Positions 1 to 19,172 of a DNA stretch of 24,466 nt are shown here, piece by piece. A model generated the notes under the pieces. That model was not told the origin of the DNA. It saw nothing but the letters and a program-made list of their open reading frames with translations, and searched no databases. Made by a program: the position numbers and the translations under genes. Position 1 is the stretch's first letter; the number at the start of each line of letters is the position of its first letter. Source of the stretch: a virus; IMG/VR virus record IMGVR_UViG_3300028173_000644, positions 1 through 24,466 of that record. One strand, written 5' to 3'.

Positions 1-2042
1 GACTGATTCGGGATCTCCCCCCGCACCGTCGGGCTCGCCTGCATCCACGCGAGTTCCGATTCTTTGCGGGCGTCCGCCTCGGCGATGAGTCGGGCGCGCT
101 CCTCGGCGCCCTTCTTGAGTACGGGTAAAGCGACGCACCTGCAATTATGCGTTATGATGCCGTTGGCCGCATACCATCCCGTCGCGGTCTCGAGGTTGTA
201 GACATGGCCCGCAAATACACAGCTACCTACGCGGAGAACGCGCACCGCCTCAACCTGGATGGGCGCAACCTGCGAGAGATCGCCGAGGCCCTGGGGGGCG
301 GCGCTGACAACGTCGGCAAGTGCCTCCGCGCCCATGGGTTCGAGTACATCAGCCCCAAGCGTACGGCGCCAAACGCCAAGGACTACGACCGGACCGAGAT
401 GGCCGTTCGATACCAGGCTGGCGAGAGCGTCAAAGCTCTGGCGGAGTTCTACGGAGTGCAGAGACAGACGGTCACGAACGAACTCAAGCGTCGCGGCGTC
501 GAACTTCGCGGGCGTAGCGAGGCCATGTTCGTCCGCATGGCCAGTACTACCGAGGAAGAACGCAAGCGCCTTACCAGCGCCGCGAACGAGGCTGTCAGGG
601 GCCACGAGAAGAGCGCGGAGTGGCTCGGCAACATCGCCAAGTGCGGGCGTCGGCGCGTCGGCAAAGGCGAGAAGGAGTTCGCGGGATTCCTCACGGCTCA
701 TGGAGTCGAGCACGCCAGGCAGGTCCCAATCGACTCGTACGAGATCGACATCGTCGTCGGCGCCGTCGCCGTGGAAATCCACAGGGACGCTTCCGGACCG
801 CTCGCAAGCGCACACAGACGAAAGCGCGTCGAACACCTGCTGAATGCAGGCTACTCCGTGCTCTACGTCGGCTTCCGCTCTGTCGCTGAGATCGTGGCGA
901 ACGCGGAACACCTCATCGCCCACCTCGACGAGATGCGCCGGGATCCAGCCGCGCCGCGTGAGTACAGGATGGTTCGGTGTCGCACGAAGCGTTTCACCCG
1001 TGGCCGTAACGATCTCGGCCAGATCACCGCTGAACCATCGCCGGTACGCTACTCGTGCGAGATGACAGAGCGACACGTCGGTGTCACCTGGTAGGCACTG
1101 CCAGAGCTCCCCGGGGTGCCCACGGTCCCCCGCATCGGAGGCCACGGGCGGCTGGCTCCACTTGTAGATGTTGCCATCCAGGTCGGCATGCTCCTGGCGC
1201 ACCCTCGAGTCCCCCACCGTACTCCACTGATACTCCTCGACCCCCAGCGACTCCATGCGCTGCTGGGCGATGGCGGCTGACAGGTTCGCGGTCTGGTCCC
1301 TGGCCAGAAAGCTCGCCTTGTTCCACGTCAGATCGAAGCGCTTCTGATACTCCTTGGCCAGGTCGAGGGTCGGCTTCCCTGCGGCGACGGCGCGCATGAC
1401 CTCGTCCGCTGTCCGCTCCAGGGCGTCGAGGCCCTTGTCCAGCATGGAGCGGGAGAAGTCCACGTTGGCCAGCACCCATGCCCTGACGTCCTGGGAGGGG
1501 ACGTGGGTGGCGATCGGGATTGTGAACAGCCGGGACAACTCCCGGTCCGTGGCGTCCGTGGTGTCCTCGTCGATCTCCCTGCCGATGAGTTCGAGGCCGG
1601 GGACGTCCGCCTCGACAATGTCGTCCAGCATCCCGCGCACGGCCTGGATCACGGCGGGGACGGAGGGCCCGGCGTCCATGCGGCGCGGCAGGATGACCCC
1701 GTCCACGCGCTTGGACAGGTCGCCCTTGAGCTCCTCCACCTGCTTGGACTGCTCGCGGATGGAGGCACGGGCGACGCGCATCACCAGGTCGAAGACGAAC
1801 TGCCACCGGGACTGCAGTAGTTCGCGCTGCATGGTCTCCAGGCGGTCGGAGAAGCGGGGGACGCGGCCGGAGAAGGGGCCCCCGGCGCGCTTGGCGTCCG
1901 TGCGGCCCAGGAGCATCCGTCGGTCCCTGGCCGTGATGCGGGCACGACGGCGGAGGGCAAACTTGGCGGCGGCATCGACGTCTGCGTGGACGATGCGGGA
2001 GCGTCCGGAGACCCAGCCGCCCTTCACCTGGTAGATGGGCAC
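1..2042 (-). CDS. Mu F-like minor head (head morphogenesis) protein interrupted by an intein; 3' end outside window
   Basis: The minus-strand frame is open from a GTG start (2040-2042) to the window edge. A GGAGGAGG ribosome binding site sits just upstream. The N-extein is 315 residues. Its last ~90 residues carry the signature of Mu gpF-like minor head proteins: an ARDQTANLSAAI helix, then SLGVEEYQWSTVGDSRVR, a DLDG segment and HPGELWQ. After the intein the frame resumes as CRCVALPVL, the conserved CRC motif of the family, and at least 47 C-extein residues are present. The family acts in procapsid assembly and lies next to the portal, as here. Cys1 of the intein follows HPGELWQ and the +1 extein residue is the first Cys of CRC, so splicing would restore the motif exactly. 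The start overlaps the preceding 68-aa gene by 19 bases. The family call rests on motif recognition, not alignment. Confidence 0.9.
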   Translation of the reverse strand, partial: MPIYQVKGGWVSGRSRIVHADVDAAAKFALRRRARITARDRRMLLGRTDAKRAGGPFSGRVPRFSDRLETMQRELLQSRWQFVFDLVMRVARASIREQSKQVEELKGDLSKRVDGVILPRRMDAGPSVPAVIQAVRGMLDDIVEADVPGLELIGREIDEDTTDATDRELSRLFTIPIATHVPSQDVRAWVLANVDFSRSMLDKGLDALERTADEVMRAVAAGKPTLDLAKEYQKRFDLTWNKASFLARDQTANLSAAIAQQRMESLGVEEYQWSTVGDSRVRQEHADLDGNIYKWSQPPVASDAGDRGHPGELWQCLPGDTDVSLCHLARVAYRRWFSGDLAEIVTATGETLRATPNHPVLTRRGWIPAHLVEVGDEVFRVRHDLSDRAEADVEHGVACIQQVFDALSSVCACERSGSVPVDFHGDGADDDVDLVRVDWDLPGVLDSMSREESRELLLAFADAPTPALGDVAEPLRALLVAPDSLVRGAGKALAFFLGSTGHADEHGLATPAKFDAATLEFVRDRLSLHSVELRQSFDALASLVSNGHLGPVVVLGVWRRTLGADVLEPMGAEALADVVSAAPQGLGDLSQVAPIQVEAVRVLRVGSCVFAGHVYNLETATGWYAANGIITHNCRCVALPVLKKGAEERARLIAEADARKESELAWMQASPTVRGEIPNQ
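144..1097 (-). other. Intein (Hint protein-splicing domain) inside the Mu F-like head protein, 318 codons
   Basis: Block A is visible as Cys1 in CLPGDTDV. Block B is TPNHPVLTRRGW, with the TxxH core at residues 40-43 of the intein, followed by HLVEVGDEVF. The C-terminal blocks F and G read VYNLETATGWYAANGIITHN, ending in the His-Asn pair with Cys as +1 extein residue. These are the residues needed for standard (class 1) splicing: Cys1, block B Thr and His, penultimate His, terminal Asn and Cys+1. The 318-codon frame has no stop. The middle (about residues 90-290) shows neither LAGLIDADG nor HNH motifs. It contains a VDFHGDGADDDVD stretch and otherwise Ala/Leu/Asp-rich sequence that does not look like a known nuclease. 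A nuclease is encoded on the opposite strand of this same region. Confidence 0.93.
204..1094 (+). CDS. Putative homing endonuclease (Vsr/EDxHD-like) encoded antisense within the intein
   Basis: This is a 296-aa protein from ATG 204; a GAGG site at 192-195 lies 8 bases upstream and favours this start over the in-frame ATG at 147. Residues 22-45 (LREIAEALGGGADNVGKCLR) and 75-101 (SVKALAEFYGVQRQTVTNEL, then GVELRGRSEA) look like two helix-turn-helix segments, typical of homing nuclease DNA-binding arms. Residues 154-222 resemble the Vsr-like fold: Glu156, YEIDIVV with Asp182, then VAVEIHRD with Glu191, His193 and Asp195, and the strand YSVLYVGF. This fits the E-D-x-H-D pattern of the EDxHD family (I-Bth0305I type). 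The stop codon TAG (1092-1094) lies opposite intein codon 2. Codons are in exact register with the intein codons of the minus strand. That frame is often open by chance in GC-rich DNA, but the domain likeness argues for a real gene. Confidence 0.8.
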   Translation: MARKYTATYAENAHRLNLDGRNLREIAEALGGGADNVGKCLRAHGFEYISPKRTAPNAKDYDRTEMAVRYQAGESVKALAEFYGVQRQTVTNELKRRGVELRGRSEAMFVRMASTTEEERKRLTSAANEAVRGHEKSAEWLGNIAKCGRRRVGKGEKEFAGFLTAHGVEHARQVPIDSYEIDIVVGAVAVEIHRDASGPLASAHRRKRVEHLLNAGYSVLYVGFRSVAEIVANAEHLIAHLDEMRRDPAAPREYRMVRCRTKRFTRGRNDLGQITAEPSPVRYSCEMTERHVGVTW

Positions 2043-2230
2043 GGGGCCTCCTCCTGCGCCCTGTACTGCACCACCTCGCCGTCTGGCCGCAGCCAGATCA
2101 GCCGGGCCAGACTCTGGCGCACGGCCGGGGGCAGGGCGGCCCACCTTCGGCGCAGGTCCTCGATGGAGTCCACCACCTCACGCACGGGGGCAAGGTCCAC
2201 GGTGAGGCAGACGGTGGAGTCGTTGGTCAC
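2024..2230 (-). CDS. Small hypothetical phage protein, 68 aa
   Basis: It starts at GTG 2230, overlapping the portal stop in a GTGA junction, and ends 19 bases inside the head-protein gene, so it is translationally coupled on both sides. The protein is mostly helical in appearance (VREVVDSIEDLRRRWAALPP) and has no recognised domain. Its position between portal and Mu F-like genes suggests a structural accessory or chaperone, but nothing in the sequence shows this. The gene call rests on the tight junctions and a plausible composition. Confidence 0.7.
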   Translation of the reverse strand: MTNDSTVCLTVDLAPVREVVDSIEDLRRRWAALPPAVRQSLARLIWLRPDGEVVQYRAQEEAPCPSTR

Positions 2231-4284
2231 TCCTCGCCCCCGTCCTTCCGATTCGCCAGGAACGGGAAGGTGGCGACGACACGGTCACCGCGCCGCAGCT
2301 CCAGGCGGGAGGCGATCCAGCCCGGGGACTTGTCCTCGTCGCGCTCGGCCACCCAGTCGCGCTGTAGCTCCAGCAGGCGCCCGACGTCCTCGGGCCTCAT
2401 GGTCTCGCTGTATCCCAAGGTCTCGTGGGCTCGGTAGCCGGGGAACTGCTTGGCGCTCACCATGTGGGCCAGAGCGCGCAGCAGCTTCTCGTTGAGCTCG
2501 CGGAGGGTCCAGCCGTCGTGCTCGAGCACCGCGGCCGTTCCCAGCACCTGCAGCCCGGAGGTCGCCATGCGCTGGGGGCTCATGGTCTCGGCGATGGGGC
2601 GGGCCAGGGCTTCCACCTCGCCGTCCCTGGCTGGGTCCACGTCGCCCAGGTAGAGCACGGTGACGTGCGGGGGCTCGTCGTGGGCCAGCGGGCCGACGAT
2701 GGCCTCGGCCTTCCTGCGCCACTCTGCGTGCTCCTCGATGCCTGCCTGGGGGACGGGCACCAGCAGGCACAGGGAGTCCTCGCTGGCGTCTGCTCGGTCT
2801 TGGGCCTGCTGGGCGGCGATCTGCTCCTCGATCATCCTGCGCGCGGCCTCCTCCGCCGCGGGGTCATCGGGCGTCGGGGTTCGCGCGGGCTTGGGATCGT
2901 CCTCCACCGGCTGCATCGAGTGCCTGTAGCCCCCGGGCTGGGCGTAGCGCTGCTTCCTGATCTCGTCCGGGGTCAGCACCCCGTCCATGATGGCGGCGGC
3001 GTCGGCCTGGGTGTGGACGAGCCTGATATCGGCCTGCTCCTTCTCGGACAGATCGCCCAGCGGCAGGAAGTCGATCGACCACTCCTTGGGCAGCGCGTTG
3101 CGCTCGACGTGGTAGAGCACGGTCACAAGCTGGCGCAGGGGCGGCTCGTAGCGGTCGATCTGCCAATCGGCCACGGCCTGGTACCAGAGGGATTGCCAGC
3201 TGCTGCCGTCGGTGTTCAGCCCTCCGGGCGCCTCGCCGAACAGCAGGGTCACGGGAGCCCCGAGCATCAGGGAGAGCTCCAGGCGGGCGTGGTCGGAAAT
3301 GTCCTTGTAGCCGCTGGGGTTCGCGGCCACGCGCTGGAAGTCGTCGCCCGGGGTGAGCAGCACAGACTGCGCCACCGACTTCATCATGTTGAGCTTGCGG
3401 ATCTGGCTGATCCAGTTCGCGCTCTCGTCGCCCGAGGTACGCGTCGGCGCGATCTTGAACACGGCGATTGATAACTCCTGGGCGATGCGAGCCCCGGACG
3501 CCCCGGTCTGGGACAGGTTCCGGATGGAGTCCCACAGCATCTGTCCGATCGGGTCCGCGCCCCACGCCGCCGAGTAGCCCTGGTTGGCGAACGCGAGTTC
3601 GGAGGGGGGCAGGTCGTCGCCGTAGAACCGGAGCAGGCGAGAGGCGTGCACGTCGGTCAGGGACCGGCGGGGCTTGTCCTGGGTGCTGGAGTACCCCGTC
3701 CGCCTTGGCGACAGGTGGTAGTGGGTGGGCATCCCCAGGGGACCGGCCTCGATATCGCTGTTGTAGCGAACCGGGAAGATCTCCCGACGATCGAAGATCT
3801 CCAGGCGATGGATACGCTTCACCTTGTCAGGCCGAAGCGGCTTGTTGAGCGGGTCCGGGTCGTCGGTGACCATCAGAACCAGACACTCACCCATGGCGCG
3901 GCCCCATGTGTCGGCGCGGCGGAACACGCGGCGGACGTCAAGGTCCCGCATCGCCTGCTGTAGGGGGCGTTCCTCGTCGCTGTCGTCGGAGATGGCGCAC
4001 CACTTCGCGGTCGCCCAGGACGGGTGCAGCTGGCAGATCCGCCGGTAGAGCCCGCCGCGGAGCATGGCCACGAGCTCCTCGGCCGTGAGGTAGTCCCGTT
4101 CGATGTTGGGACGGGCCTGGGCCCCGGAGTCGCGGTAGCCGCCGAGCCCGGAGATGGCGTTGCTGACAGCGGCCCCAGAGAGGTTCTGCTCGCTGGAGTA
4201 CGTCGAGTCGGCGCGCAGGCTCGGGGGGGCGACAGGGGCGGGTGGGCCGATGACGAGGTCGCGAAGTCTTGAGCGGACGGACAT
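2227..4284 (-). CDS. Phage portal protein (DUF1073/Acb1-N family) with C-terminal 2H phosphodiesterase-like domain
   Basis: The protein is 685 aa. The start is ATG 4284 (MSVRSRLRDL), chosen because AGGAGG lies just upstream; the longer frame to 4311 has no such site. Residues ~30-470 match the DUF1073 portal family: AGPLGMPTHYHL, SRLLRFYGDDLPP, LELSLMLGAPVTLLFGEAPG, GLNTDGSSWQSLWYQAVADW. Portals form the dodecameric DNA channel at the capsid vertex, and the terminase and head genes flank it as expected. The last ~170 residues are a separate module with two His-x-Thr motifs, HVTVLYLG (His540) and HETLGY (His620). This is the arrangement of 2H phosphoesterases, including the anti-CBASS enzyme Acb1, whose name is attached to this portal family. 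Between the two modules lies a Pro/Ala/Glu-rich linker. The portal role is well supported; enzymatic activity of the tail is inferred. Confidence 0.9.
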   Translation of the reverse strand: MSVRSRLRDLVIGPPAPVAPPSLRADSTYSSEQNLSGAAVSNAISGLGGYRDSGAQARPNIERDYLTAEELVAMLRGGLYRRICQLHPSWATAKWCAISDDSDEERPLQQAMRDLDVRRVFRRADTWGRAMGECLVLMVTDDPDPLNKPLRPDKVKRIHRLEIFDRREIFPVRYNSDIEAGPLGMPTHYHLSPRRTGYSSTQDKPRRSLTDVHASRLLRFYGDDLPPSELAFANQGYSAAWGADPIGQMLWDSIRNLSQTGASGARIAQELSIAVFKIAPTRTSGDESANWISQIRKLNMMKSVAQSVLLTPGDDFQRVAANPSGYKDISDHARLELSLMLGAPVTLLFGEAPGGLNTDGSSWQSLWYQAVADWQIDRYEPPLRQLVTVLYHVERNALPKEWSIDFLPLGDLSEKEQADIRLVHTQADAAAIMDGVLTPDEIRKQRYAQPGGYRHSMQPVEDDPKPARTPTPDDPAAEEAARRMIEEQIAAQQAQDRADASEDSLCLLVPVPQAGIEEHAEWRRKAEAIVGPLAHDEPPHVTVLYLGDVDPARDGEVEALARPIAETMSPQRMATSGLQVLGTAAVLEHDGWTLRELNEKLLRALAHMVSAKQFPGYRAHETLGYSETMRPEDVGRLLELQRDWVAERDEDKSPGWIASRLELRRGDRVVATFPFLANRKDGGEE

Positions 4285-4311
4285 GAGGCCTCCTGGCCAG
4301 AATGATAGCAC

Positions 4312-5910
4312 CTAACCCAACATGTCGAACCAAGACCGCTGCGAGACCTGCCCCTCGTCCTCACGGGTCCAGCGCATGTGCAGCTGGCTGCTCGCGTCCA
4401 TGTCATCGTCGTTGGCGCCCAGCGGGAAGGCGACGATGTTCTCGATGTAGTCGCCGACCCAGTGCGCGATCTCTGGCGCTGGGAGGATGATGGCGCCGGC
4501 CTCGGCTGCGCGCTGCAGGTACCTGGCTCTCGCCGCCTTGGACTTGTCCGAGCCCGGGGTGTCCTTGTTCGGATGGAACCGCACCAAGGCCACGCCCATG
4601 TAGTACGGAGACCTGGCGTCCAGGTAGTTCGTGCCGTTTGCCGTGTCCTCTACGAGGCAGCCCCCGGAGGTCCGGACGATGAACCTGGACCACTTGGCGA
4701 TCATCGCGTCCATGGCGAGGAAGTATTCGATGGACCCCATGCGGGCGTAGGTCCGGTCGAGCAGATAGCGCTTGCCGTCCTTCCTCGCGTGGCACTGGAT
4801 GGCGTTGTAGTCCGCCTCGATCGTTCCCTTCTTCGCGGCGTCCGCGGTGACCCAGACCTCGTCAGCGGTGGCGGCGATGTCCTCGGGCTCGCAGTGGTAG
4901 CGCTCGCGGAACCACTCGCGCTTGACCGCGCCGCCCTCGGACGGCGTCGGGTTCATCTCCAGTTGAGCCTCTGCGTGCCGACCCAGGGCCCGGCGGAGCT
5001 CGGCGATGACCTCGTCGGTGTGACGGGCCGGATGCAGGCGCTCCCCTGGCGTCGTGCGGGGATCGTCCTCGGAGGCGTGCTCGTGCTCCGGCGCGTAGTG
5101 CATCGGCAGGCACAGGACCTTCCAGCCGCCCTCCCGCAGGGCATGGCCGGCGGGGTCGTTGACGTGCAGACGCTGCATCACCAGGGTCTTCGGGGCGTCC
5201 CGGGGGTCGTTGACGCGGGTGGTCAGGGCCTGGTCGATGATGATGTGGGCCTCGTGGCAGCGCTTCTCCACCGCCTCCGGGCCGCCGAGGATCACGGCCT
5301 TGACGTCGAGCGGGTCGTCGATGACCATCTTGTCGCCGCGCTTGCCGGTGACCCCGGTGCGCAGGGTCAGGCACTGGCGAAAGCCGCGCGAGGTGTTCTC
5401 GAAGTTGCGCTTCTCCTGCTGGTCCTGGGCGAACACCCAGGGCTTGGAGTCGTGGCGCCGGCACCACTCGGCGAGCAGTTCCTGATAGGTCGGATCCTTG
5501 AGGGCAAGGCGGGTGCGGCGGCTGTCCCTGGTGGACAAGTCATCGTCCCCGGTGAAGAACAGGCTCCGGCCCCCGGGGTTGAACAGCCACTCGTAGGCGG
5601 GGGCCATGACCGAGACCAGGATGGACTTGGCTGTGCCCGGGGGGAGCAGGATCAGCAGCTTCCGGTACTCGGGATCCCCCAGCATCTGGCGGTGGAGGTA
5701 GTGGCAGACCACGGACATGAACGGGGCCCACTCGAGGTCCCGGGGCTCGACAACCGGCCACATCAGGCGGACGAACGCCTCGAAGGCGCCGTCCCGCTCG
5801 TGGCGGAGGGCCTTCTCCATCAGCCGCGCTCGGATCTTCGCCTTCCTGCGCCTGGCCTTCTCGGCGCGGATCTGCGCCCTCCTGGCCTGGCGAGGGGTGG
5901 GCTCCTGCAC
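4312..5910 (-). CDS. terL: Terminase large subunit (packaging ATPase/nuclease)
   Basis: It is a 532-aa protein starting at GTG 5910, with GGAGGAG five bases upstream overlapping the end of the small-subunit gene. The N-terminal ATPase has a terminase-type Walker A, LLPPGTAKS (residues 89-96), and a Walker B, MVIDDP (195-200), with Asp-Asp in place of the usual Asp-Glu. TLVMQRLHVNDPAGHAL looks like the coupling motif segment. The C-terminal RNase H-like nuclease shows acidic clusters at WVTADAA (Asp357), CLVEDTANG (Glu421, Asp422) and GANDDDMDA (about 498-506). Length and motif order are normal for the family. It pumps DNA into the procapsid through the portal encoded next, 27 bases downstream. 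The highly basic first 30 residues may contact DNA. Confidence 0.95.
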   Translation of the reverse strand: MQEPTPRQARRAQIRAEKARRRKAKIRARLMEKALRHERDGAFEAFVRLMWPVVEPRDLEWAPFMSVVCHYLHRQMLGDPEYRKLLILLPPGTAKSILVSVMAPAYEWLFNPGGRSLFFTGDDDLSTRDSRRTRLALKDPTYQELLAEWCRRHDSKPWVFAQDQQEKRNFENTSRGFRQCLTLRTGVTGKRGDKMVIDDPLDVKAVILGGPEAVEKRCHEAHIIIDQALTTRVNDPRDAPKTLVMQRLHVNDPAGHALREGGWKVLCLPMHYAPEHEHASEDDPRTTPGERLHPARHTDEVIAELRRALGRHAEAQLEMNPTPSEGGAVKREWFRERYHCEPEDIAATADEVWVTADAAKKGTIEADYNAIQCHARKDGKRYLLDRTYARMGSIEYFLAMDAMIAKWSRFIVRTSGGCLVEDTANGTNYLDARSPYYMGVALVRFHPNKDTPGSDKSKAARARYLQRAAEAGAIILPAPEIAHWVGDYIENIVAFPLGANDDDMDASSQLHMRWTREDEGQVSQRSWFDMLG

Positions 5911-5912
5911 GG

Positions 5913-6662
5913 CTACTCCTCCACCCCGTAGGCCCCGTCCTGCTCGTGCAGGTCGATGGCGTCCGCGCGGCCGTCAGCCTCCAGGGCGGCCAGTTCTGCG
6001 TCGAGCTCGGCGTCGGTCTTGTCCTCCAGCCCGTGGGTGACCGTGACGCCTCCAGCGTGCTCCACCGTGCTGCTCTTGCCATGGCCGGTGCGGTCGAGGG
6101 CCATGGTGGCGAGCAGGCGAAGTTCGTTGTCGTCCATCGCTCCAGCGTCCAGGCGCTCCTTCAGTTGTGCCAGGGCCTGGCCTGCGACCTCCCGTAGCGT
6201 GCGCCTGACCTGCTCACTGTGCTCGTCCAGGGCGTCCTCCAGCGCTGCAGCAAAGCCGGGCTGTCGCTTCCACTTTCGGATCGTCCTGGGCACGACGCCA
6301 GCGAACTCCGCGGCATTGATGTTGCTCTCTCCCACGGCGAGGGACTCGAGCGCGAGCCGCTGTTGCGGAGTGAACCTCACGTCCTCTGGATCGAACCGGA
6401 CCACCGGAAGACGTTCCTCCCGCTCCGTTCGTTCGTTCGTTTCCCGTTCGTTCGTTTCTCCCGCGTTCGTTCGTTCGCCGTTCGTTCCGTTCGCTTCCAC
6501 CCCGTTGCGCCTCTTGTCGCGAAACACCATGGCCCGGAGCTTGGCCCGGGGATGCCCGGTGCGGCTGGTGACCACCGAGTACGGGATCGGCTTGGGATAC
6601 CCCTGCCGCTTCCCAAGCATATCCAACACCTGGTCTCGTTCCTTGGCGGACATGCGGGCCAT
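5913..6662 (-). CDS. terS: Probable terminase small subunit
   Basis: The gene sits directly upstream of terL and starts at ATG 6662 in a TGATG overlap with the helicase stop, with GGAGGGG eight bases before it. Residues ~94-137 (FTPQQRLALESLAVG, then NINAAEFAGVVPRTIRKWKR) form a helix-turn-helix of the kind small terminase subunits use to recognise packaging sites. A predicted helical oligomerisation region follows, then an acidic tail. Residues 57-84 are an unusual Thr-Asn-Glu-Arg repeat, produced by a tetranucleotide tract in the DNA. This is probably a disordered linker between a first DNA-binding region and the helix-turn-helix. The call rests on position plus the helix-turn-helix. Confidence 0.82.
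   Translation of the reverse strand: MARMSAKERDQVLDMLGKRQGYPKPIPYSVVTSRTGHPRAKLRAMVFRDKRRNGVEANGTNGERTNAGETNERETNERTEREERLPVVRFDPEDVRFTPQQRLALESLAVGESNINAAEFAGVVPRTIRKWKRQPGFAAALEDALDEHSEQVRRTLREVAGQALAQLKERLDAGAMDDNELRLLATMALDRTGHGKSSTVEHAGGVTVTHGLEDKTDAELDAELAALEADGRADAIDLHEQDGAYGVEE
6426..6494. repeat. CGTT tetranucleotide repeat tract within the small terminase gene
   Basis: On the plus strand the tract contains clusters of 4, 3, 3, 2 and 1 CGTT units separated by short TC or CC interruptions. On the coding strand it reads GAAC/GAACG and gives the Thr-Asn-Glu-Arg repeats. A 4-bp unit makes the tract prone to slippage frameshifts. In several phages the packaging site lies inside the small terminase gene, so this is a candidate recognition site, by inference only. 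Confidence 0.75.
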
Positions 6663-8023
6663 CAGCAGTACCCCTCCCCGCCGCCGTACGGGCCTTCATG
6701 CCGCCGGCCAAGGTCCGAAAACGTCTGATACTCCCCACTCCACCCCATCTCGACCGTCCCCTTCGGCCCGTGCCGGTTCTTGCTCACGATGACCTCGGCA
6801 AGACCGCGCTTCTCGGTGTCGGGGTTGTACTCCTCCTCGCGGTAAATGAAGATCACCATGTCCGCGTCCTGCTCGATGGCCCCTGACTCGCGGAGATCCG
6901 CCATCCTGGGGCGCTTGTTCTCGCGCATCTCAACACCGCGGTTCAACTGGCTCAACAGCAGCACGCAGATCTTGAGCTCCTTCGCCAGCAGCTTGAGTCC
7001 GCGACTCATGCCGGCCACCTGCTGCTCTCTGTTCTGCCGCCTGTCCTCTGCCTCGAGCAGCTGCAGGTAGTCCACCACGAGCAAGCCCAGGTTCGGCTCG
7101 CGGGCCTTGAGGCGCCTCGCCAGGGACCGCAGGCGCGAGACGGTACAGGACACGTCGAGCCAGTGGATGGGCAGGCCGTGTAGCGCCTCCGCCGCGTCAG
7201 CCATCCTCGCGTGATCGTCCGTGCGGCTGGCGAGGATGCCGTTTCGGATCGAGGTGGTGTTGACCCTGGCCTCGGATGCGAACTGTCGATCAACGCACTG
7301 CTCGGCGATCATCTCCTGGTTGACGACGGCGACGGTGATGTGCTCGGAGGCCTTGCGGGCGATGTTGAGCGCAAGGGCGCTCTTGCCCATGGCGGGCCTG
7401 GCCGCAAGGACGATCAGGTCCCCGCCCCGTAGACCTCCCGTCTTCGCGTCGAGCTTCGGGAAGCCCGTGGACGTCCCCGCCACGGCCTGGTGCATCAGGG
7501 CCGCGGTCCGCTCCGCCTTGAGCTGGTAGCAGCGATCCACCACGTCGGCCTGCGTCCGCCACTCGTCGCGCACGGAGGACCCGGCTAGCCTCTGCAGCGC
7601 CTTCTCGCCCTGGGCCAGCACGTCGGAGACGTCCTCGCCCTGATAGGCGCCCTCGAGCAACTCGTGGGCGGTGACGATGGCGCGGCGGCGGAGGGCCCGG
7701 TCCCGCAGGAGGGCGGCGTAGATCTCGATGTTCTGGGTGGACGGCACGCCCTCGGGCAAGCCGGAGATGTACGCGGCGCCCCCGTAGGTCTCGTGGCCTC
7801 GCTGCACGGCGAGATCCACGGCGACCAGGGAGTCGCAGGTGGGGCGCTCGCCCTTACCGTTGACCTCGGAGATCAGACCCCAGAGCTGTCGGTGGGCCTC
7901 GCGGTGGAAGTCCTCGCCGTTGACCTCGTCGCGGAGGATGAGCCAGCAGGAGGGGTCCAGGAGGCAGGCGCCGAGGATGGCGCGCTCTGCGTCGAGGGAG
8001 GAGGGGATCTTGCGTTCGGTCAT
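6662..8023 (-). CDS. dnaB: Replicative DNA helicase, DnaB family
   Basis: It is 453 aa from ATG 8023, which overlaps the preceding stop (ATGA) and has GGAGG eight bases upstream; an in-frame ATG at 8038 is less well placed. Residues 1-110 are the DnaB N-terminal domain (SLDAERAILGACLLDP, HREAHRQLWGLI). The RecA-like ATPase begins near 185 (STGFPKLDAKTGGLRGGDLI). Walker A is ARPAMGKSA (208-216) and Walker B is LLVVDYLQL (314-322). LLLSQLNR (356-362) and the later MADLRESGAIEQDADMV motif are classical. It would unwind the phage fork, recruited by the initiator encoded further upstream in the same operon. Length is normal for the family. Confidence 0.97.
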   Translation of the reverse strand: MTERKIPSSLDAERAILGACLLDPSCWLILRDEVNGEDFHREAHRQLWGLISEVNGKGERPTCDSLVAVDLAVQRGHETYGGAAYISGLPEGVPSTQNIEIYAALLRDRALRRRAIVTAHELLEGAYQGEDVSDVLAQGEKALQRLAGSSVRDEWRTQADVVDRCYQLKAERTAALMHQAVAGTSTGFPKLDAKTGGLRGGDLIVLAARPAMGKSALALNIARKASEHITVAVVNQEMIAEQCVDRQFASEARVNTTSIRNGILASRTDDHARMADAAEALHGLPIHWLDVSCTVSRLRSLARRLKAREPNLGLLVVDYLQLLEAEDRRQNREQQVAGMSRGLKLLAKELKICVLLLSQLNRGVEMRENKRPRMADLRESGAIEQDADMVIFIYREEEYNPDTEKRGLAEVIVSKNRHGPKGTVEMGWSGEYQTFSDLGRRHEGPYGGGEGYC

Positions 8024-8396: not shown

Positions 8397-8861
8397 ATGC
8401 GTCAATGCCAAAACTGTGGAAAGCCGATCAGAACCAGAAACGCCAAGCGGTTCTGTTCTCATGCCTGCTACGCGGAAAGCCGCCGCGGGTCGTTGGGGCC
8501 TGGCAACTTCAAGCCGGGCAAAGTCCCGGCCAACAAGCTTCCTGTTGGCTCTGTGACTTTCAGATCGCGCCCTGGGCGCAACCAGGCGGCTCGGGCGTGG
8601 GTCAAGATCGCTGAGCCGAACGTGTGGAGGCTTCGCGCTCAGGTTGTTTGGCTGTCCGCTGGGTGTAAGATTCCGGACGGTATGGTCCTTCACCACGTCA
8701 ACGAAGACAGGACGGACGACAGGCTCGAGAACCTCGAGTGTCTCACAAAGGCTGAGCACCTCGCCGTCCATCGCGAGGACCACGCAGCGAAGCGCAGGGA
8801 GGGCCTGCTCCGAGCATGGAAGAGGCGGAAGGCTGACACTCATGCGAAAAGCCCCTCCTGA
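8397..8861 (+). CDS. HNH homing endonuclease, free-standing
   Basis: This 154-aa protein starts at ATG 8397 behind GGAGG. The N-terminus has a four-Cys zinc site (C4, C7, C20, C24: CQNCGKP and FCSHAC). Residues ~94-126 carry the HNH core: DGMVLHHVNEDRTDD with His99 and His100, then Asn112 in RLENLECL, then His121 and His125. This matches the HNH_3 homing type found widely in phages. It is transcribed against its neighbours and overlaps the 3' end of the methyltransferase gene by 22 bases. That is the usual picture of a mobile nuclease gene inserted between phage genes. It would make a double-strand or nicking cut in DNA lacking the insert. Confidence 0.92.
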   Translation: MRQCQNCGKPIRTRNAKRFCSHACYAESRRGSLGPGNFKPGKVPANKLPVGSVTFRSRPGRNQAARAWVKIAEPNVWRLRAQVVWLSAGCKIPDGMVLHHVNEDRTDDRLENLECLTKAEHLAVHREDHAAKRREGLLRAWKRRKADTHAKSPS

Positions 8862-9559
8862 ACCCCATCCGATTCGGCCTGAGCCAGTCGTCGGGCAGCG
8901 ATCTCGAGGTATGCGGGCTCACGCTCGATCCCGATGAAGCGCCGACCCTCACGCAGCGCCCCAACCCCCGTGGAGCCTGACCCGCAGAACGGATCAAGCA
9001 CGCGCGTTGCTCCGGTCCACTTCACGAGCTGGGCGCACAGATCAGCCGGCTTCTCTGCTCCGTGGTGGGCATGGCTGCCGTACGGCCAACGATGCCGGAT
9101 CACAGCGGGCAGTGTCCTTGGGATGATCTCTGGATCGTGCTTCCAGTCAGGGCCACGGATGAACCCGATCATCTCGAAGCCAGCACGGAACGGAGAGCCG
9201 AGCCCGATGCTTTCACGGTCCCACACAAGCGCCTGAGACTGACGCCAGGCGCTCGCGGTCTGTCTGTCGATCCCACCAGCGATGGACCCGTGAAGAGCCG
9301 CTATCATCCTCCAGTCCGAGAACAGAAAGCCGCAGGATCGGCCGTCGAGACACGCCGAGATCCTCTCCCACGCACCACGGAACCAGTAACTCCAAAACTG
9401 GGTATCAGTCGCGGAGTCGCGCCCGCTCGTGTTTCCGCCCGCGGTCGCGTACGGGGGATCGCTTACGATCCCGTTTGCGCACACGCCAAGCTGAGGCAGG
9501 ACGTCGAACAGGTCTCCACTGTAGAGCGTCCACCGCTCGCCGGAATCAAACGGCTTCAT
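8840..9559 (-). CDS. DNA adenine-N6 or cytosine-N4 methyltransferase, DPPY type
   Basis: The 239-aa protein starts at ATG 9559 with GGAGG six bases upstream; the adjacent GTG at 9562 is an alternative. The catalytic motif DPPY is at residues 34-37, and the S-adenosylmethionine site DPFCGSGST is at 189-197. The catalytic-motif-first order is that of the beta class. No target-recognition domain of notable size is inserted, as in short phage enzymes such as Dam-like and CcrM-like proteins. It would methylate phage DNA, most simply against host restriction. It is one of three methyltransferase signatures in the window. The target sequence cannot be read from the protein. Confidence 0.93.
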   Translation of the reverse strand: MKPFDSGERWTLYSGDLFDVLPQLGVCANGIVSDPPYATAGGNTSGRDSATDTQFWSYWFRGAWERISACLDGRSCGFLFSDWRMIAALHGSIAGGIDRQTASAWRQSQALVWDRESIGLGSPFRAGFEMIGFIRGPDWKHDPEIIPRTLPAVIRHRWPYGSHAHHGAEKPADLCAQLVKWTGATRVLDPFCGSGSTGVGALREGRRFIGIEREPAYLEIAARRLAQAESDGVQEGLFA

Positions 9560-9761
9560 CACGAGCCTCCCACCACGTAGCGACTTCGTGGGCTGCGTCC
9601 CATACGTCGTCGGGAATCTGCTCTTCTTCCCAGTTGCTCACATCGGCCCATGCCTCCCCGAGTTTCGTTCGCTTCACCTCCCCGCAGTCGTCGTACTCGT
9701 CGCTGTTGAACCGAAGTTCGTCAGCCATCCAGCGTTTCATTTCTGTCCATTGGATTCTCAT
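9546..9761 (-). CDS. Small acidic hypothetical protein, 71 aa
   Basis: ATG 9761 overlaps the stop of the 27-aa gene upstream (ATGA), and the 3' end overlaps the methyltransferase start by 14 bases. The protein is rich in Asp, Glu and Trp (MRIQWTEMKRWMADELRFNS, then EEEQIPDDVWDAAHEVATWW). Small acidic phage proteins are sometimes DNA mimics or enzyme inhibitors, but no specific family is recognised. Its coupling to the methyltransferase suggests joint expression. Confidence 0.7.
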   Translation of the reverse strand: MRIQWTEMKRWMADELRFNSDEYDDCGEVKRTKLGEAWADVSNWEEEQIPDDVWDAAHEVATWWEARDEAV

Positions 9762-9841
9762 GCTTGCTCCATCGTCGGATAGATGCTCTCGGCGTAGGCG
9801 CGGTGAATGGTTCCGCGGCGGAGGTCGTAGCGGTCAGGCAT
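9758..9841 (-). CDS. Microprotein, 27 aa, coupled on both sides
   Basis: ATG 9841 lies inside the last codons of the upstream replication gene. A GGGAG plus G-rich stretch precedes it, and its TGA overlaps the next ATG. The sequence begins MPDRYDLRRGTIHRAYAES. It is too short for family assignment. The call rests on the conserved junction style and ribosome binding site; it could instead be only a coupling element that carries ribosomes to the next gene. Confidence 0.5.
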   Translation of the reverse strand: MPDRYDLRRGTIHRAYAESIYPTMEQA

Positions 9842-11315
9842 GACACCCCCCCCACTCCCGCCGGTACGCCTCACAGAGCCTCTTCTCCCGCTCCCTGCGG
9901 GTGTACTGGGTGACCTCGCCGACCCACCGCCGGCCGCCGCAGCTCGAGACAGCCCGGGCCAGGGCGGCGTGGGTCCTGTCGTCCTCGTGCCAGCGGTCGA
10001 AGTGCTCGCCGTGGCGCACGACGATGGCCAGGGCGTGCGCGAAGGCCTTCTCGGGGGGCAGGACGTAGCCGTTGTGGGCATGTGTTTCCGATCTGGAAAC
10101 ACCTCGCCGCCGCCTCTCCCAGTCCTTCGCCTGCTCGTGGTACCCCCCGCGGTTCCGGGCTCGGATGACCGTCTCGGGGTTCTTCCTGGTCTCGCGCAGG
10201 AACACGGCATCGCCGTCGCCCTCGCGCCCCTCGGAGATCCAGCGGGCGATGAGGGTCCACGACTCCCATCCGCCCATCTCCTTCGCACCAGCGGTCAGCC
10301 ACTTTCTCCACTGCGGCTTGAGCGCCCAGGAGCGGCCCACCGCGGCGTTGATGGCGGCCCAGGCTACGTCAGGTAGTCCTTGACCAACGGGCTCGTCTCT
10401 CTCATTTTCGGGCGCTTTCCGTGCTGGTAGACGACCCTGACTGTCACGAACTCCCTCGTCGCGTCGCACCACCCCTGTTCCACCATTCGTATGCTCCTGC
10501 TGAGCGCTGGTTGCCCCTCTACATCCGTGACCCATTGCTGTCTGTGCGGGCACCACGACTGGCCCACTTGGCGGATCTGTCGTTGCTGCTGATTCGTGCT
10601 GGTGGTGGGCATGGTCCTTCCTTGTGGCGCTGGCTTCGAATCTGCGGTTTGCTTCTTGGGGAGGCCTACGGGCCGACCCCTTCTGCCGTCGTTCATCGGA
10701 CGAGCCGACAGCGGCACCCGCGTCAGCGGGTGAGGCCCCGGGAGGGGCCGGCGCTGTTGGTGTTCTTGTGTCTGGGTGTAGGTGTGTAGGTGTGTCTAGA
10801 CGCGCGTGGGGAGAATCGCTGGAGAGCGGCTGGAGAGCGGCTGGAGAATCGCTGGAGGAATTCCGTCCATTCCCGGCGTTCGTCCGTTGCGGGTTTGGAG
10901 AATCGCTGGAGAGCGGCTGGAGAGCGGCTGGAGAATCGCTGGAGGGGTCGCCCCAGACGTCCTCCTCCTTGAGCGCCTTCCTCGTGGGCCAGTCTGTCCA
11001 TCCCCACCGCTCACGCAGCGCTGGCCTTCCCGGCCTGTTTGCTCGCCCCATCCGCTCCTGGTCTGCCCACCACCGCAGGTCCATCCAGACGGCCTCACGC
11101 GGCCACGGCTTCTCGAGGCTGGCGGCTACGAGCGGCCACCAAGCCGCGTCACATGGCACCCAGGGGCGCCTCCGTTGCTGTCTCATGTCGCTCTCGCTGG
11201 TTCGCCCTTGCCTGCCGCTGATGGAGGAGATGGCCTCCATGCCCCCAGCCGCACCACCGGTCATGACTCCGGCGGTAGGCGGCTGGTCCAGCGAGGATGG
11301 GCATGGAGGCACCAT
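9834..11315 (-). CDS. Replication-initiator-like protein with winged-helix N-domain and repeat-encoded linker (possibly more than one gene)
   Basis: The ATG at 11315 follows GGGGAG of the junction repeat; a later ATG (11186, MRQQRRRPWVPC) is an alternative start. The first ~130 residues contain a Trp-rich winged-helix-like region (AAWWPLVAASLEKPWPREAV, then RERWGWTDWPTRKALKEEDV). The linker holds two copies of SSDSPAALQPLSSDSP encoded by DNA iterons, then a Pro/Thr-rich stretch. The C-terminal ~165 residues (LPDVAWAAINAAVGRSW, GGWESWTLIARWISEG, FLRETRKNPETVIR) look like a helical replication-protein domain. The architecture recalls lambda O, whose gene contains the origin. Between about 10370 and 10612 this frame has AT-rich third positions while another frame is better, so the single 493-aa protein may really be two genes or an overprinted linker. 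Confidence 0.6.
   Translation of the reverse strand: MVPPCPSSLDQPPTAGVMTGGAAGGMEAISSISGRQGRTSESDMRQQRRRPWVPCDAAWWPLVAASLEKPWPREAVWMDLRWWADQERMGRANRPGRPALRERWGWTDWPTRKALKEEDVWGDPSSDSPAALQPLSSDSPNPQRTNAGNGRNSSSDSPAALQPLSSDSPHARLDTPTHLHPDTRTPTAPAPPGASPADAGAAVGSSDERRQKGSARRPPQEANRRFEASATRKDHAHHQHESAATTDPPSGPVVVPAQTAMGHGCRGATSAQQEHTNGGTGVVRRDEGVRDSQGRLPARKAPENERDEPVGQGLPDVAWAAINAAVGRSWALKPQWRKWLTAGAKEMGGWESWTLIARWISEGREGDGDAVFLRETRKNPETVIRARNRGGYHEQAKDWERRRRGVSRSETHAHNGYVLPPEKAFAHALAIVVRHGEHFDRWHEDDRTHAALARAVSSCGGRRWVGEVTQYTRREREKRLCEAYRREWGGCHA
10364..10612 (-). CDS. Out-of-frame 82-aa gene overlapping the initiator linker
   Basis: The ATG at 10612 has AAGGAAGG four to five bases upstream, a strong ribosome binding site. 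The protein has two similar segments, SWCPHRQQWVTDVEG and GWCDATREFVTVRVV, which look like a duplicated Trp-Cys-strand unit, and ends KRPKMRETSPLVKDYLT. About four fifths of its codons end in G or C, as in the true genes here. The overlapping initiator frame ends about half its codons in A or T over the same stretch. The frame is also open further upstream to 10717. I recognise no family. Either it is a separate gene or one half of a frameshifted product. Confidence 0.6.
   Translation of the reverse strand: MPTTSTNQQQRQIRQVGQSWCPHRQQWVTDVEGQPALSRSIRMVEQGWCDATREFVTVRVVYQHGKRPKMRETSPLVKDYLT
10715..10749. other. Two adjacent short inverted repeats beside the iteron region
   Basis: CACCCGC-gtca-GCGGGTG (10715-10732) is a perfect 7-bp stem with a 4-base loop. 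It is directly followed by a GGCCCC/GGGGCC pair with a short loop. They lie between the GT-rich tract near the iterons and the 82-aa gene. They could form a transcript hairpin or an origin structure. No T-run follows, so a simple intrinsic terminator is not supported. Confidence 0.4.
10764..10797. other. GT-rich, cytosine-poor tract next to the iterons
   Basis: The plus strand here is almost entirely G and T, with repeated GGTGTGT and GTGTAGG units and very few C. It sits 10-45 bases from the first iteron block and encodes a Thr/Pro/His-rich linker in the initiator frame. Strand-asymmetric, easily melted tracts beside iterons are typical of origin unwinding regions, so this is a candidate melting element. 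Confidence 0.35.
10810..10944. repeat. Eight 11-bp iterons in two identical 48-bp blocks (candidate replication origin)
   Basis: Each block is A-B-B-A plus GGAG, with A = GGAGAATCGCT and B = GGAGAGCGGCT. Block 1 is 10810-10857 and block 2 is 10897-10944, so the block starts are 87 bp apart. An 11-bp period places successive sites on nearly the same face of the helix, as initiator-binding iterons do. They lie inside the gene of the presumed initiator, as the lambda origin lies in gene O. Confidence 0.8.
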
Positions 11316-11350: not shown

Positions 11351-11497
11351 ACGCTCCGCGCGCCGCGCCATCGCCTTCTGGTGTCGCTCAGGGCCGTTCT
11401 CGTCACGCCACCACCCGCACAGGCAGAACTGGCCGCGAATATGGAACCCGGCGCGCTTTGTCTTGGCGCCACACTTTGGGCAGCAGGGGTGAATCAT
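11321..11497 (-). CDS. Small zinc-ribbon protein, 58 aa
   Basis: ATG 11497 overlaps the methyltransferase stop (ATGA). The protein begins MIHPCCPKCGAKTKRAGFHI and has CPKC followed by CLCGWW, a four-Cys zinc ribbon. A basic helix follows (RRAEREAAACARGE). Its tail is encoded by the junction repeat shared with two unrelated genes, so the last eight residues are not part of the fold. Likely a nucleic-acid-binding accessory protein; no specific family is identified. Confidence 0.75.
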   Translation of the reverse strand: MIHPCCPKCGAKTKRAGFHIRGQFCLCGWWRDENGPERHQKAMARRAEREAAACARGE

Positions 11498-12162
11498 CCC
11501 TGTCTCCACAGCCGAGCCATAGCCATAGTGTGCCGCTTCGGGTCGATCTCGGCCCCGAGGTAGCGCCGACCCGTAGCGAGACAGGCACGGGCCATGGGGG
11601 CGAGGCCGGCGTAGAGATCGAGCACGAGGTCGTCTGGCTCGGTGAACGCCTCCACGAGCGCTGACAGCCATTCTGCGGGCTTCTCGCTGTGGGCCTGACG
11701 AGGGGACCCGTATCCGTTCCGGGCGCAGCCAAGCGGCTTGGGGGCGCCCTTGACGTACAGCAGCAGCGGCTCTGTATCGCCGCGCCAATGGAAGCCGACG
11801 CCGAGCCCGCTGGTCTTGTGCCACGAGCCGCCCGACTTGTACCGCCATCCGATCTCGTGTCCAGCCGTCAGCCACTCCTCGAGCTTCGGCCAGGTGCACC
11901 AGCAGAGCAAGTAGGCGTCATCGGCGGCGCTGTCGTAGGCGGCGCGAAGGTGGGCGCCGATGTCGGCCATTGTGAGTAGTCCGTACTCGTCTTCGGCGTT
12001 GCCCTGGACCGCGGCGTTGTCGTATTGCCACGGCGGATCCGCCATCACAAGCCGCGCTCCTCGGCACTCGGTCAGGATCTCGGCCACGTCGCAGCAGCGC
12101 AGGTCGATCCCGGGCTTGGTCGGGTGCGCGCGTTGACCCCATAGGTCAGCCTGTTTGCTCAT
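11494..12162 (-). CDS. MT-A70 family DNA N6-adenine methyltransferase
   Basis: The 222-aa protein starts at ATG 12162 with AGGAG eight bases upstream. DPPW (residues 42-45) in LVMADPPWQYDN is the MT-A70 catalytic motif. Later WKTSG-like and RHSEKP-like elements appear as GGSWHKTSGLGVGFHWRG and RQAHSEKPAEWL. The C-terminal VLDLYAGLAPMARACLATGR is the cofactor-binding segment. Phage members usually methylate adenines to evade restriction. It leads the sub-operon that continues into the zinc ribbon and the initiator, and a promoter candidate lies upstream. Confidence 0.92.
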   Translation of the reverse strand: MSKQADLWGQRAHPTKPGIDLRCCDVAEILTECRGARLVMADPPWQYDNAAVQGNAEDEYGLLTMADIGAHLRAAYDSAADDAYLLCWCTWPKLEEWLTAGHEIGWRYKSGGSWHKTSGLGVGFHWRGDTEPLLLYVKGAPKPLGCARNGYGSPRQAHSEKPAEWLSALVEAFTEPDDLVLDLYAGLAPMARACLATGRRYLGAEIDPKRHTMAMARLWRQG

Positions 12163-18136: not shown

Positions 18137-18165
18137 AGCATAGCAGCACTATCGCGGCATGACAA
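18137..18165 (-). promoter_or_regulatory. Leftward promoter of the regulator operon
   Basis: Minus strand: TTGTCA at 18160-18165, a 17-base spacer and TATGCT at 18137-18142. This is a near-consensus sigma-70-type promoter. Transcription would start about 12 bases before the regulator ribosome binding site. Confidence 0.75.
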
Positions 18166-18249
18166 ATCTTTCCGGCGCAACCCTCGCGCGTAGATGCTGT
18201 CACGGTGGCGCGCACATTATCGGCGACGGCAATTTTCTTCCGTTTTCTC

Positions 18250-18278
18250 TTGCCACCCACGCCCCGGCTCTATATGCT
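18250..18278 (+). promoter_or_regulatory. Rightward promoter of the ParB-like gene
   Basis: Plus strand: TTGCCA at 18250-18255, a 17-base spacer and TATGCT at 18273-18278. It matches the leftward promoter in spacing and -10. The 72 bases between the two -35 boxes (about 18166-18249) would hold operators; I see no clear palindrome there by eye. Confidence 0.75.
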
Positions 18279-18311
18279 TCGTGGCGTACCCCAACGAACC
18301 GCGAGGACAGC

Positions 18312-19172
18312 ATGAACATCCTGGACAAGTCCCCCACGCAGCATCTCCACCCGATGCCGCACGGGTTTTCCCCCGACAAGGCGCGGGCCTACAAGTGGGC
18401 CGACGTGCAGCCGCTCGGCGAGATCCGAAGGGTGTCGAAGTTCGACCTCAACATCGACGGCAGATACCAGCGCGAGGCGGTCAGCGACGTCAAGGTCACC
18501 AAGATCGCGAAGTCCTGGAGTTGGCCGCTCTGCGGCGTCATCGCCGTCGCGCGACGGGCCGACGATACCCTCTGGGTCACCGACGGCGGCCACCGTGTCC
18601 GGGCCGCGTTCCAGCGTGGGGAGATCGATGAGTTGCCCTGCATCATCTCTCGCTATGCGGACCTCGCCGAGGAGGCCCAGGCGTTCCTGGACGCGAACCT
18701 GCTGACCTCCAACGTCAGCGCGTACCACAAGTATCGCGCTGGAGTCCAGGCCAACGACGCCACGGCCATCGCCACGAAGGCGATCATGGATCGGCACGGA
18801 TACACGATCGCGCGTGGCGGGAAGTACCGCGGCCCGGTCATCCACGCGATCGGCATCCTCGTCACAATCGTCAGGCAGGACGAGGAGCGGGCCGCCGCAG
18901 CCTTTGACGCGCTGGTCAAGATCAGCAAGCACGAGCACATCGGCTCCGAGGCGCTGAAAGGCTACTTCTGGCTCGCCGCTCGCGCCCCTGCCATTCTCAC
19001 GCCGAAAGCCGTCAAGCGGCTGCAAGACGTCGGGCTGCCCACGATCGAGGAGGCCATCCGCAAGGTGAAGATCGTCGTCGGCACGGCTGGCGCGAGGACA
19101 TGCGGCATCGGGATCGCGAACGCCTACAACCACCGCCTCCGTCGCAACAAGATCGACACGGCGACCCTCTAA
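18312..19172 (+). CDS. ParB-like (DUF6551-type) protein, 286 aa
   Basis: ATG 18312 has GAGG five bases upstream and is preferred over the longer frame to 18159, which would run through the promoter. Residues ~40-110 have the ParB/sulfiredoxin fold signature: DLNIDGRYQREAVSDVKVTK, then VARRADDTLWVTDGGHRVRA with the DGGHR motif. A helical region follows (SAYHKYRAGVQANDATAIAT, IMDRHGYTI). This matches DUF6551-type phage proteins. Its place as first rightward gene at the switch region suggests an early or regulatory DNA-binding role. ParB-fold proteins may bind CTP or act as nucleases, and which applies here is not visible. Confidence 0.8.
   Translation: MNILDKSPTQHLHPMPHGFSPDKARAYKWADVQPLGEIRRVSKFDLNIDGRYQREAVSDVKVTKIAKSWSWPLCGVIAVARRADDTLWVTDGGHRVRAAFQRGEIDELPCIISRYADLAEEAQAFLDANLLTSNVSAYHKYRAGVQANDATAIATKAIMDRHGYTIARGGKYRGPVIHAIGILVTIVRQDEERAAAAFDALVKISKHEHIGSEALKGYFWLAARAPAILTPKAVKRLQDVGLPTIEEAIRKVKIVVGTAGARTCGIGIANAYNHRLRRNKIDTATL

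Follow-up and report, generated by a model that had tools for sequence, protein, structure and literature searches.

Organization of the portal locus

The analyzed window is the entire 24,466-nucleotide stretch of the viral record IMGVR_UViG_3300028173_000644 from IMG/VR. Its portal gene is located on the minus strand between the genes for the terminase large subunit and a MuF-type head protein. The features of the locus are as follows, in window coordinates and in the order of transcription.

4312..5910, minus strand: terminase large subunit, immediately 5' of the portal gene
2227..4311, minus strand: portal protein with a C-terminal 2H domain, 694 amino acids, GTG start codon (an internal start at the ATG at 4284 is also possible)
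2998..4068, minus strand: DUF1073 portal domain (PF06381, Phage_portal_3), residues 82-438, E-value 3e-51
2776..2910, minus strand: linker rich in Pro, Ala and Glu, about residues 468-512
2257..2775, minus strand: 2H phosphoesterase domain, residues 513-685, assigned from PF13563, the structural model, fold matches and dN/dS
2659..2667, minus strand: putative catalytic motif 1, His-Val-Thr, residues 549-551, in a core strand (alignment; DSSP)
2419..2427, minus strand: putative catalytic motif 2, His-Glu-Thr, residues 629-631, in a core strand (alignment; DSSP)
1..2144, minus strand: MuF-type head protein gene with an intein, directly downstream of the portal gene; it runs off the window, and the complete gene is found in a related contig (L005:6168-8381)

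The interval 2227-2760, singled out in an earlier note on this DNA, is the 3' end of the minus-strand portal gene. Residue numbers in that note are lower by 9, since they were counted from Met10 (the ATG at 4284), so that its His540 and His620 correspond to His549 and His629 here. The portal part occupies approximately the first 460 residues and also matches phrog_146 (portal). The PF06381 match and the head-gene order TerS-TerL-portal-MuF place the protein in the DUF1073 portal family. Elsewhere the window encodes two DNA methyltransferases and a ParB-like/DUF6551 protein (8840-9562, minus strand; 11494-12162, minus strand; 18159-19172, plus strand).

The intein of the MuF gene is inserted in a conserved Cys-Arg-Cys site (WQ/CLPGDTD...GIITHN/CRC). 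An antisense ORF of 315 amino acids (147-1094, plus strand) spans nearly the whole intein, and its product, which has a helix-turn-helix match and weak matches to Vsr-like and DUF559 nucleases, looks like a homing endonuclease. The same arrangement was found in L029 (MuF at 5748-7952, plus strand; antisense ORF at 6780-7730, minus strand), where the antisense product is 49% identical; both frames are open over about 950 bases in the intein region. A literature search yielded examples of antisense homing endonuclease genes in group I introns and none in inteins. The MuF gene of L016 contains a mini-intein, and in L013 a free-standing HNH/AP2 endonuclease gene (9450-10112) lies directly 3' of an intein-bearing MuF gene.

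Conservation of the C-terminal 2H domain

The suggestion of the earlier note that the portal protein ends in a separable 2H tail behind a Pro/Ala/Glu-rich linker is borne out by matches to both PF06381 and PF13563 and by a predicted 2H fold. The PF13563 profile (2'-5' RNA ligase superfamily, that is, 2H phosphoesterases) matches residues 526-674 with 33.1 bits at a cut-off of 27 (E-value 7e-8). The two HxT motifs reported before are indeed present, 80 residues apart, as HVT at 549-551 and HET at 629-631. By itself such a pair is weak evidence, as 0.61 HxT motifs are expected from composition and two are observed; a chance origin is excluded by the profile match, the fold and the conservation taken together.

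Relatives of the tail were gathered by scanning 2.9 million viral contigs with successively enlarged alignments, reaching approximately 25% identity. Most of them score above the PF13563 cut-off, with a maximum of 62.8 bits, and two, L008 (24.6 bits) and L010 (25.0 bits), fall just below it. The only invariant columns in the alignment of 20 rows are Pro43, His44, Thr46, Gly51 and His124 (domain numbering), three of which are catalytic. In the numbering of the window protein, His549, Thr551 and His629 are invariant in all 20 copies, and Thr631 is retained in 19. The HxT/HxT tetrad is catalytic in Acb1 (PMC9117128), and the tetrad of the tail occupies the same positions, three of them invariant and the fourth nearly so. 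The sole relative with HEP in place of HET, where Pro replaces the second catalytic Thr, is L008 (2331-4364), whose tail may be weakened or inactive.

Purifying selection acts on the tail: comparison of the window with the 70%-identical L008 and L010 gave dN/dS values of 0.25-0.28 for the tail and 0.29-0.35 for the portal part. The 2H domain is genuine and its active-site residues are intact; enzymatic activity is predicted from the sequence and the model.

Predicted fold and nearest families

The AlphaFold model built from the 20 rows has a 2H fold (pLDDT 91.2, pTM 0.86), in agreement with an earlier model built from six rows. According to DSSP on the model and the alignment, both catalytic histidines are at the start of predicted core strands. 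The top fold match is PH0099 (1vdx; Z-score 18.4, 166 aligned residues, 2.4 A rmsd), followed by TT0787 of T. thermophilus (17.8), the CPDase of D. radiodurans (17.2), human Usb1 (16.2) and E. coli LigT (16.0). Two phage Acb1 structures gave Z-scores of 12.6 and 11.0, and the penguinpox cGAMP phosphodiesterase 9.6. Sequence profiles rank these families identically (PH0099, 7e-9; CPDase, 3e-7; Acb1, 2.5e-3), and the HxT motif register matches that of PH0099 and the D. radiodurans CPDase. In the structural comparison with Acb1 proposed in the earlier note, the 2H fold is predicted, and the Acb1 structures have Z-scores of 11.0-12.6, versus 16-18 for the LigT-type enzymes.

On the basis of profiles and the model, the tail is assigned to 2H phosphoesterases of the LigT/ThpR-Usb1 type, a branch other than Acb1. 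We also considered a ThpR orthologue, which is excluded by the NCBI equivalog cut-off: the score against TIGR02258 (ThpR / RNA 2',3'-cyclic phosphodiesterase) is 20 bits, below the cut-off of 65.7.

Acb1 tails on related portals

The earlier note described the tail as Acb1-like. This holds for the superfamily and the HxT tetrad; the tetrad is also found in Acb1, being common to the whole superfamily and hence not diagnostic. Specific kinship to Acb1 is not supported: the LigT, ThpR and Usb1 proteins score higher by profile and fold, and the tail has no match to the Acb1 profile PF23474 at E<=1. The positive controls, T4 Acb1 and the portal tail of Rhizobium phage RHph_TM3_3_3, scored 203 and 114.6 bits with the same profile. 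A profile comparison of the window group with T4 Acb1 aligned only 17 columns with a probability of 8, a comparison of low power based on a single sequence. Membership of the tail in the Acb1 family is therefore disfavoured at the sequence level.

Nevertheless, the link between DUF1073 and Acb1 in databases, which the earlier note mentioned, has a real basis, since some DUF1073 portals bear true Acb1 tails, although the window portal does not. A search of phage records with T4 Acb1 retrieved the portal of RHph_TM3_3_3 (L051:1507-3330), in which PF06381 is followed by PF23474. Proteins annotated as portals in Pseudomonas phage phiPSA1, in further Rhizobium phages and in Pam3 have similar Acb1 tails; the Pam3 portal (PDB 8hds) aligns to that of RHph_TM3_3_3 through the Acb1 tail.

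Exchange of tails among portals and head proteins

The portal tail is an exchangeable slot, and the 2H module is dispensable to the portal, because a close relative of the window portal has a different tail and because two close portals of Rhizobium phages differ in having one. The first case is L016, whose portal domain is 69% identical to that of the window and is nested in the same clade of the portal tree (support 100/100); where the linker ends, its sequence switches to an unrelated domain of approximately 100 residues. In the second, RHph_N28_2 has no tail domain, whereas its near-twin RHph_TM3_3_3 has a true Acb1 tail at the same position. In the portal tree, 12 of the 13 LigT-type tails fall into one supported set, which includes L016, and L047 is found elsewhere on a long branch; portals were sampled by their tails, and hence tail frequencies are not readable from this tree.

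The 100-residue domain of L016 (GNAEKVLAWRDKHG...WKDAGLVAWLGWGGDTAKTW; L016:6501-6827) has a weak match to phrog_2859, a family of unknown function, and is also present in L035 (3116-5350), where it is followed by a 2H domain. The cyanophage Aphanizomenon phage CL131 has a DUF1073 portal, an inorganic pyrophosphatase and MuF in one protein (L054:2432-6253).

Members of the same 2H branch also occur in other head proteins. In L033 (1188-2747) the 2H domain is N-terminal to an XkdF-type head protease, and L037 resembles L033 by eye; this fusion is not named in the available portions of two earlier surveys (PMC5512222, PMC9503650). In L038 the 2H domain is N-terminal in a head-module protein with HYGVKGMKWG motifs, encoded next to the terminase and the portal.

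No relatives were found in the scanned bacterial genome contigs, hence neither a prophage copy nor a host is named. A tblastn search of cultured phages with single tails yielded no LigT-type 2H portal.

Possible function of the portal tail

We propose that the portal displays a LigT/ThpR-Usb1-type 2H phosphoesterase at its C-terminus on a flexible linker. About 12 copies would be anchored at the end of the portal directed towards the head interior, and the site of action could be the head interior, the cytoplasm before assembly, or a place reached once the domain has left the portal. The enzyme may cleave phosphodiester bonds (2',3'-cyclic, 3'-5' or 2'-5') of small signal nucleotides or of oligonucleotides, which would blunt immunity based on nucleotide signals (CBASS, type III CRISPR or similar systems). 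The conserved active site, the selective constraint and the exchangeability argue that the tail probably serves as an effector, one of a number of interchangeable modules on the portal, and not as part of the packaging machinery. A counter-signalling or RNA-end role, as envisaged in the earlier note, is plausible given the predicted 2H domain with intact active-site residues. We prefer a role against signal nucleotides because a proven anti-CBASS family occupies the same slot of sister portals and another nucleotide enzyme is found there. A portal-borne enzyme of this type, directed against nucleotide-signal immunity, is in our judgement the best explanation overall, and we hold it with moderate confidence. 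Against it, the solved structures closest to the tail are those of RNA 2',3'-cyclic phosphodiesterases and of the Usb1 RNase rather than of enzymes acting on cyclic dinucleotides, and the fold does not give the substrate; in addition, L008 has Pro instead of the second catalytic Thr.

The tail could instead act on RNA, by Usb1/ThpR-like trimming or by resolution of 2',3'-cyclic phosphate ends, for example on tRNA fragments produced by host anticodon nucleases or in clearing RNA from the prohead. We retain this possibility, with a smaller yet appreciable chance, because the closest solved structures are RNA enzymes; an RNase role for 2H-portal and 2H-MuF fusions is also favoured, by analogy with PBECR RNase fusions, in PMC5512222. 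However, the scanned proteins of the window include no RNA ligase or kinase partner, the authors of that paper likewise noted no linkage of such fusions to RNA ligases, and a true anti-CBASS Acb1 domain occurs in the same slot of the same portal family.

The tail could also have been repurposed for a binding or structural role, keeping nucleic acid or another head protein at the portal without turnover. The domain is attached to structural head proteins, some 2H proteins among the fold matches belong to large assemblies (the trypanosome mitoribosome, AKAP18), and L008 has lost one catalytic Thr. We nevertheless regard such a role as improbable: across 20 divergent copies nothing is better conserved than the HxT tetrad, whereas the remainder of the domain drifts, and a close relative replaces the whole domain, unlike a needed structural part. 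Finally, a true Acb1, that is, a dedicated nuclease for 3'3'-cGAMP and cyclic trinucleotides orthologous to T4 gp57B, is very improbable, for although the superfamily, the tetrad, a fold match and the Acb1 tails of other DUF1073 portals point to it, PF23474 matches the controls and not the window tail (E<=1), and LigT-type enzymes score better by both profile and fold.

Possible delivery into the cell

Portals remain at the capsid vertex. Therefore, contrary to what the earlier note expected, fusion to the portal does not imply that the enzyme is in the cell when infection begins. A portal-tethered domain would reach a new host only if it were cut off and ejected, and no cleavage site was identified. 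Alternatively, the domain could act late in the producing cell or be released by a head protease; in the relative L029, a head protease is encoded after MuF. We speculate that the DUF1073 tail could be a general enzyme berth in the capsid, carrying about 12 nucleotide-cutting domains from at least two independently acquired 2H branches, which are freed by the head protease, ejected with the DNA and present in the cell from the very onset of infection; as a whole this scenario is unlikely.

Significance

The arrangement of a 2H domain on a portal is already known. Fusions of 2H domains to MuF or portal domains were described by Iyer et al. in 2017, with proposed RNase or counter-signalling roles (PMC5512222), and a 2022 survey of NAD+-ADPr systems repeats the prediction for portal and MuF fusions and suggests head packaging and injection (PMC9503650). 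Literature searches for later work on portal-fused phosphodiesterases added no paper to these two. Our analysis adds a placement in the LigT-type branch, evidence that the tail is conserved and swapped, and a parallel in the Acb1 tails that occur within this portal family.

An active tail would mean that a nucleotide-cutting enzyme is permanently placed on an essential structural protein and that its amount per virion is fixed. The presence of two separate 2H branches, Acb1 and LigT-type, on one portal family suggests that this arrangement has been selected repeatedly. The idea that structural proteins carry counter-defence enzymes becomes testable, with Pam3 (8hds, Acb1 tail) as a ready model.

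Comparison with known systems

The 2H-portal and 2H-MuF fusions of PMC5512222 and PMC9503650 share with the window the portal and 2H domains, the head-gene context and the proposed anti-signal or RNase role, whereas a sequence-level account of the LigT-type branch is absent from the available portions of both papers. Among other head proteins, ReqiPepy6 gp013 resembles the head-module proteins of the L038 type.

The LigT/ThpR enzymes (PH0099, 1vdx; D. radiodurans, 5h7e; E. coli, 5ldi) and human Usb1 are the best profile and fold matches and have the same motif register. In contrast to the portal-linked domain of the window, they are stand-alone cellular enzymes. T4 Acb1 (gp57B, an anti-CBASS nuclease; PMC9117128) has the HxT/HxT tetrad and the 2H fold in common with the tail and is likewise phage-encoded, but it is a stand-alone protein of 152 amino acids from a separate Pfam family. 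The portals of RHph_TM3_3_3 and Pseudanabaena phage Pam3 belong to the same family as the window portal and carry, at the same C-terminal position, a domain of the 2H superfamily with HxT/HxT motifs; their tail is a PF23474 Acb1, while that of the window is of the PF13563/LigT type.
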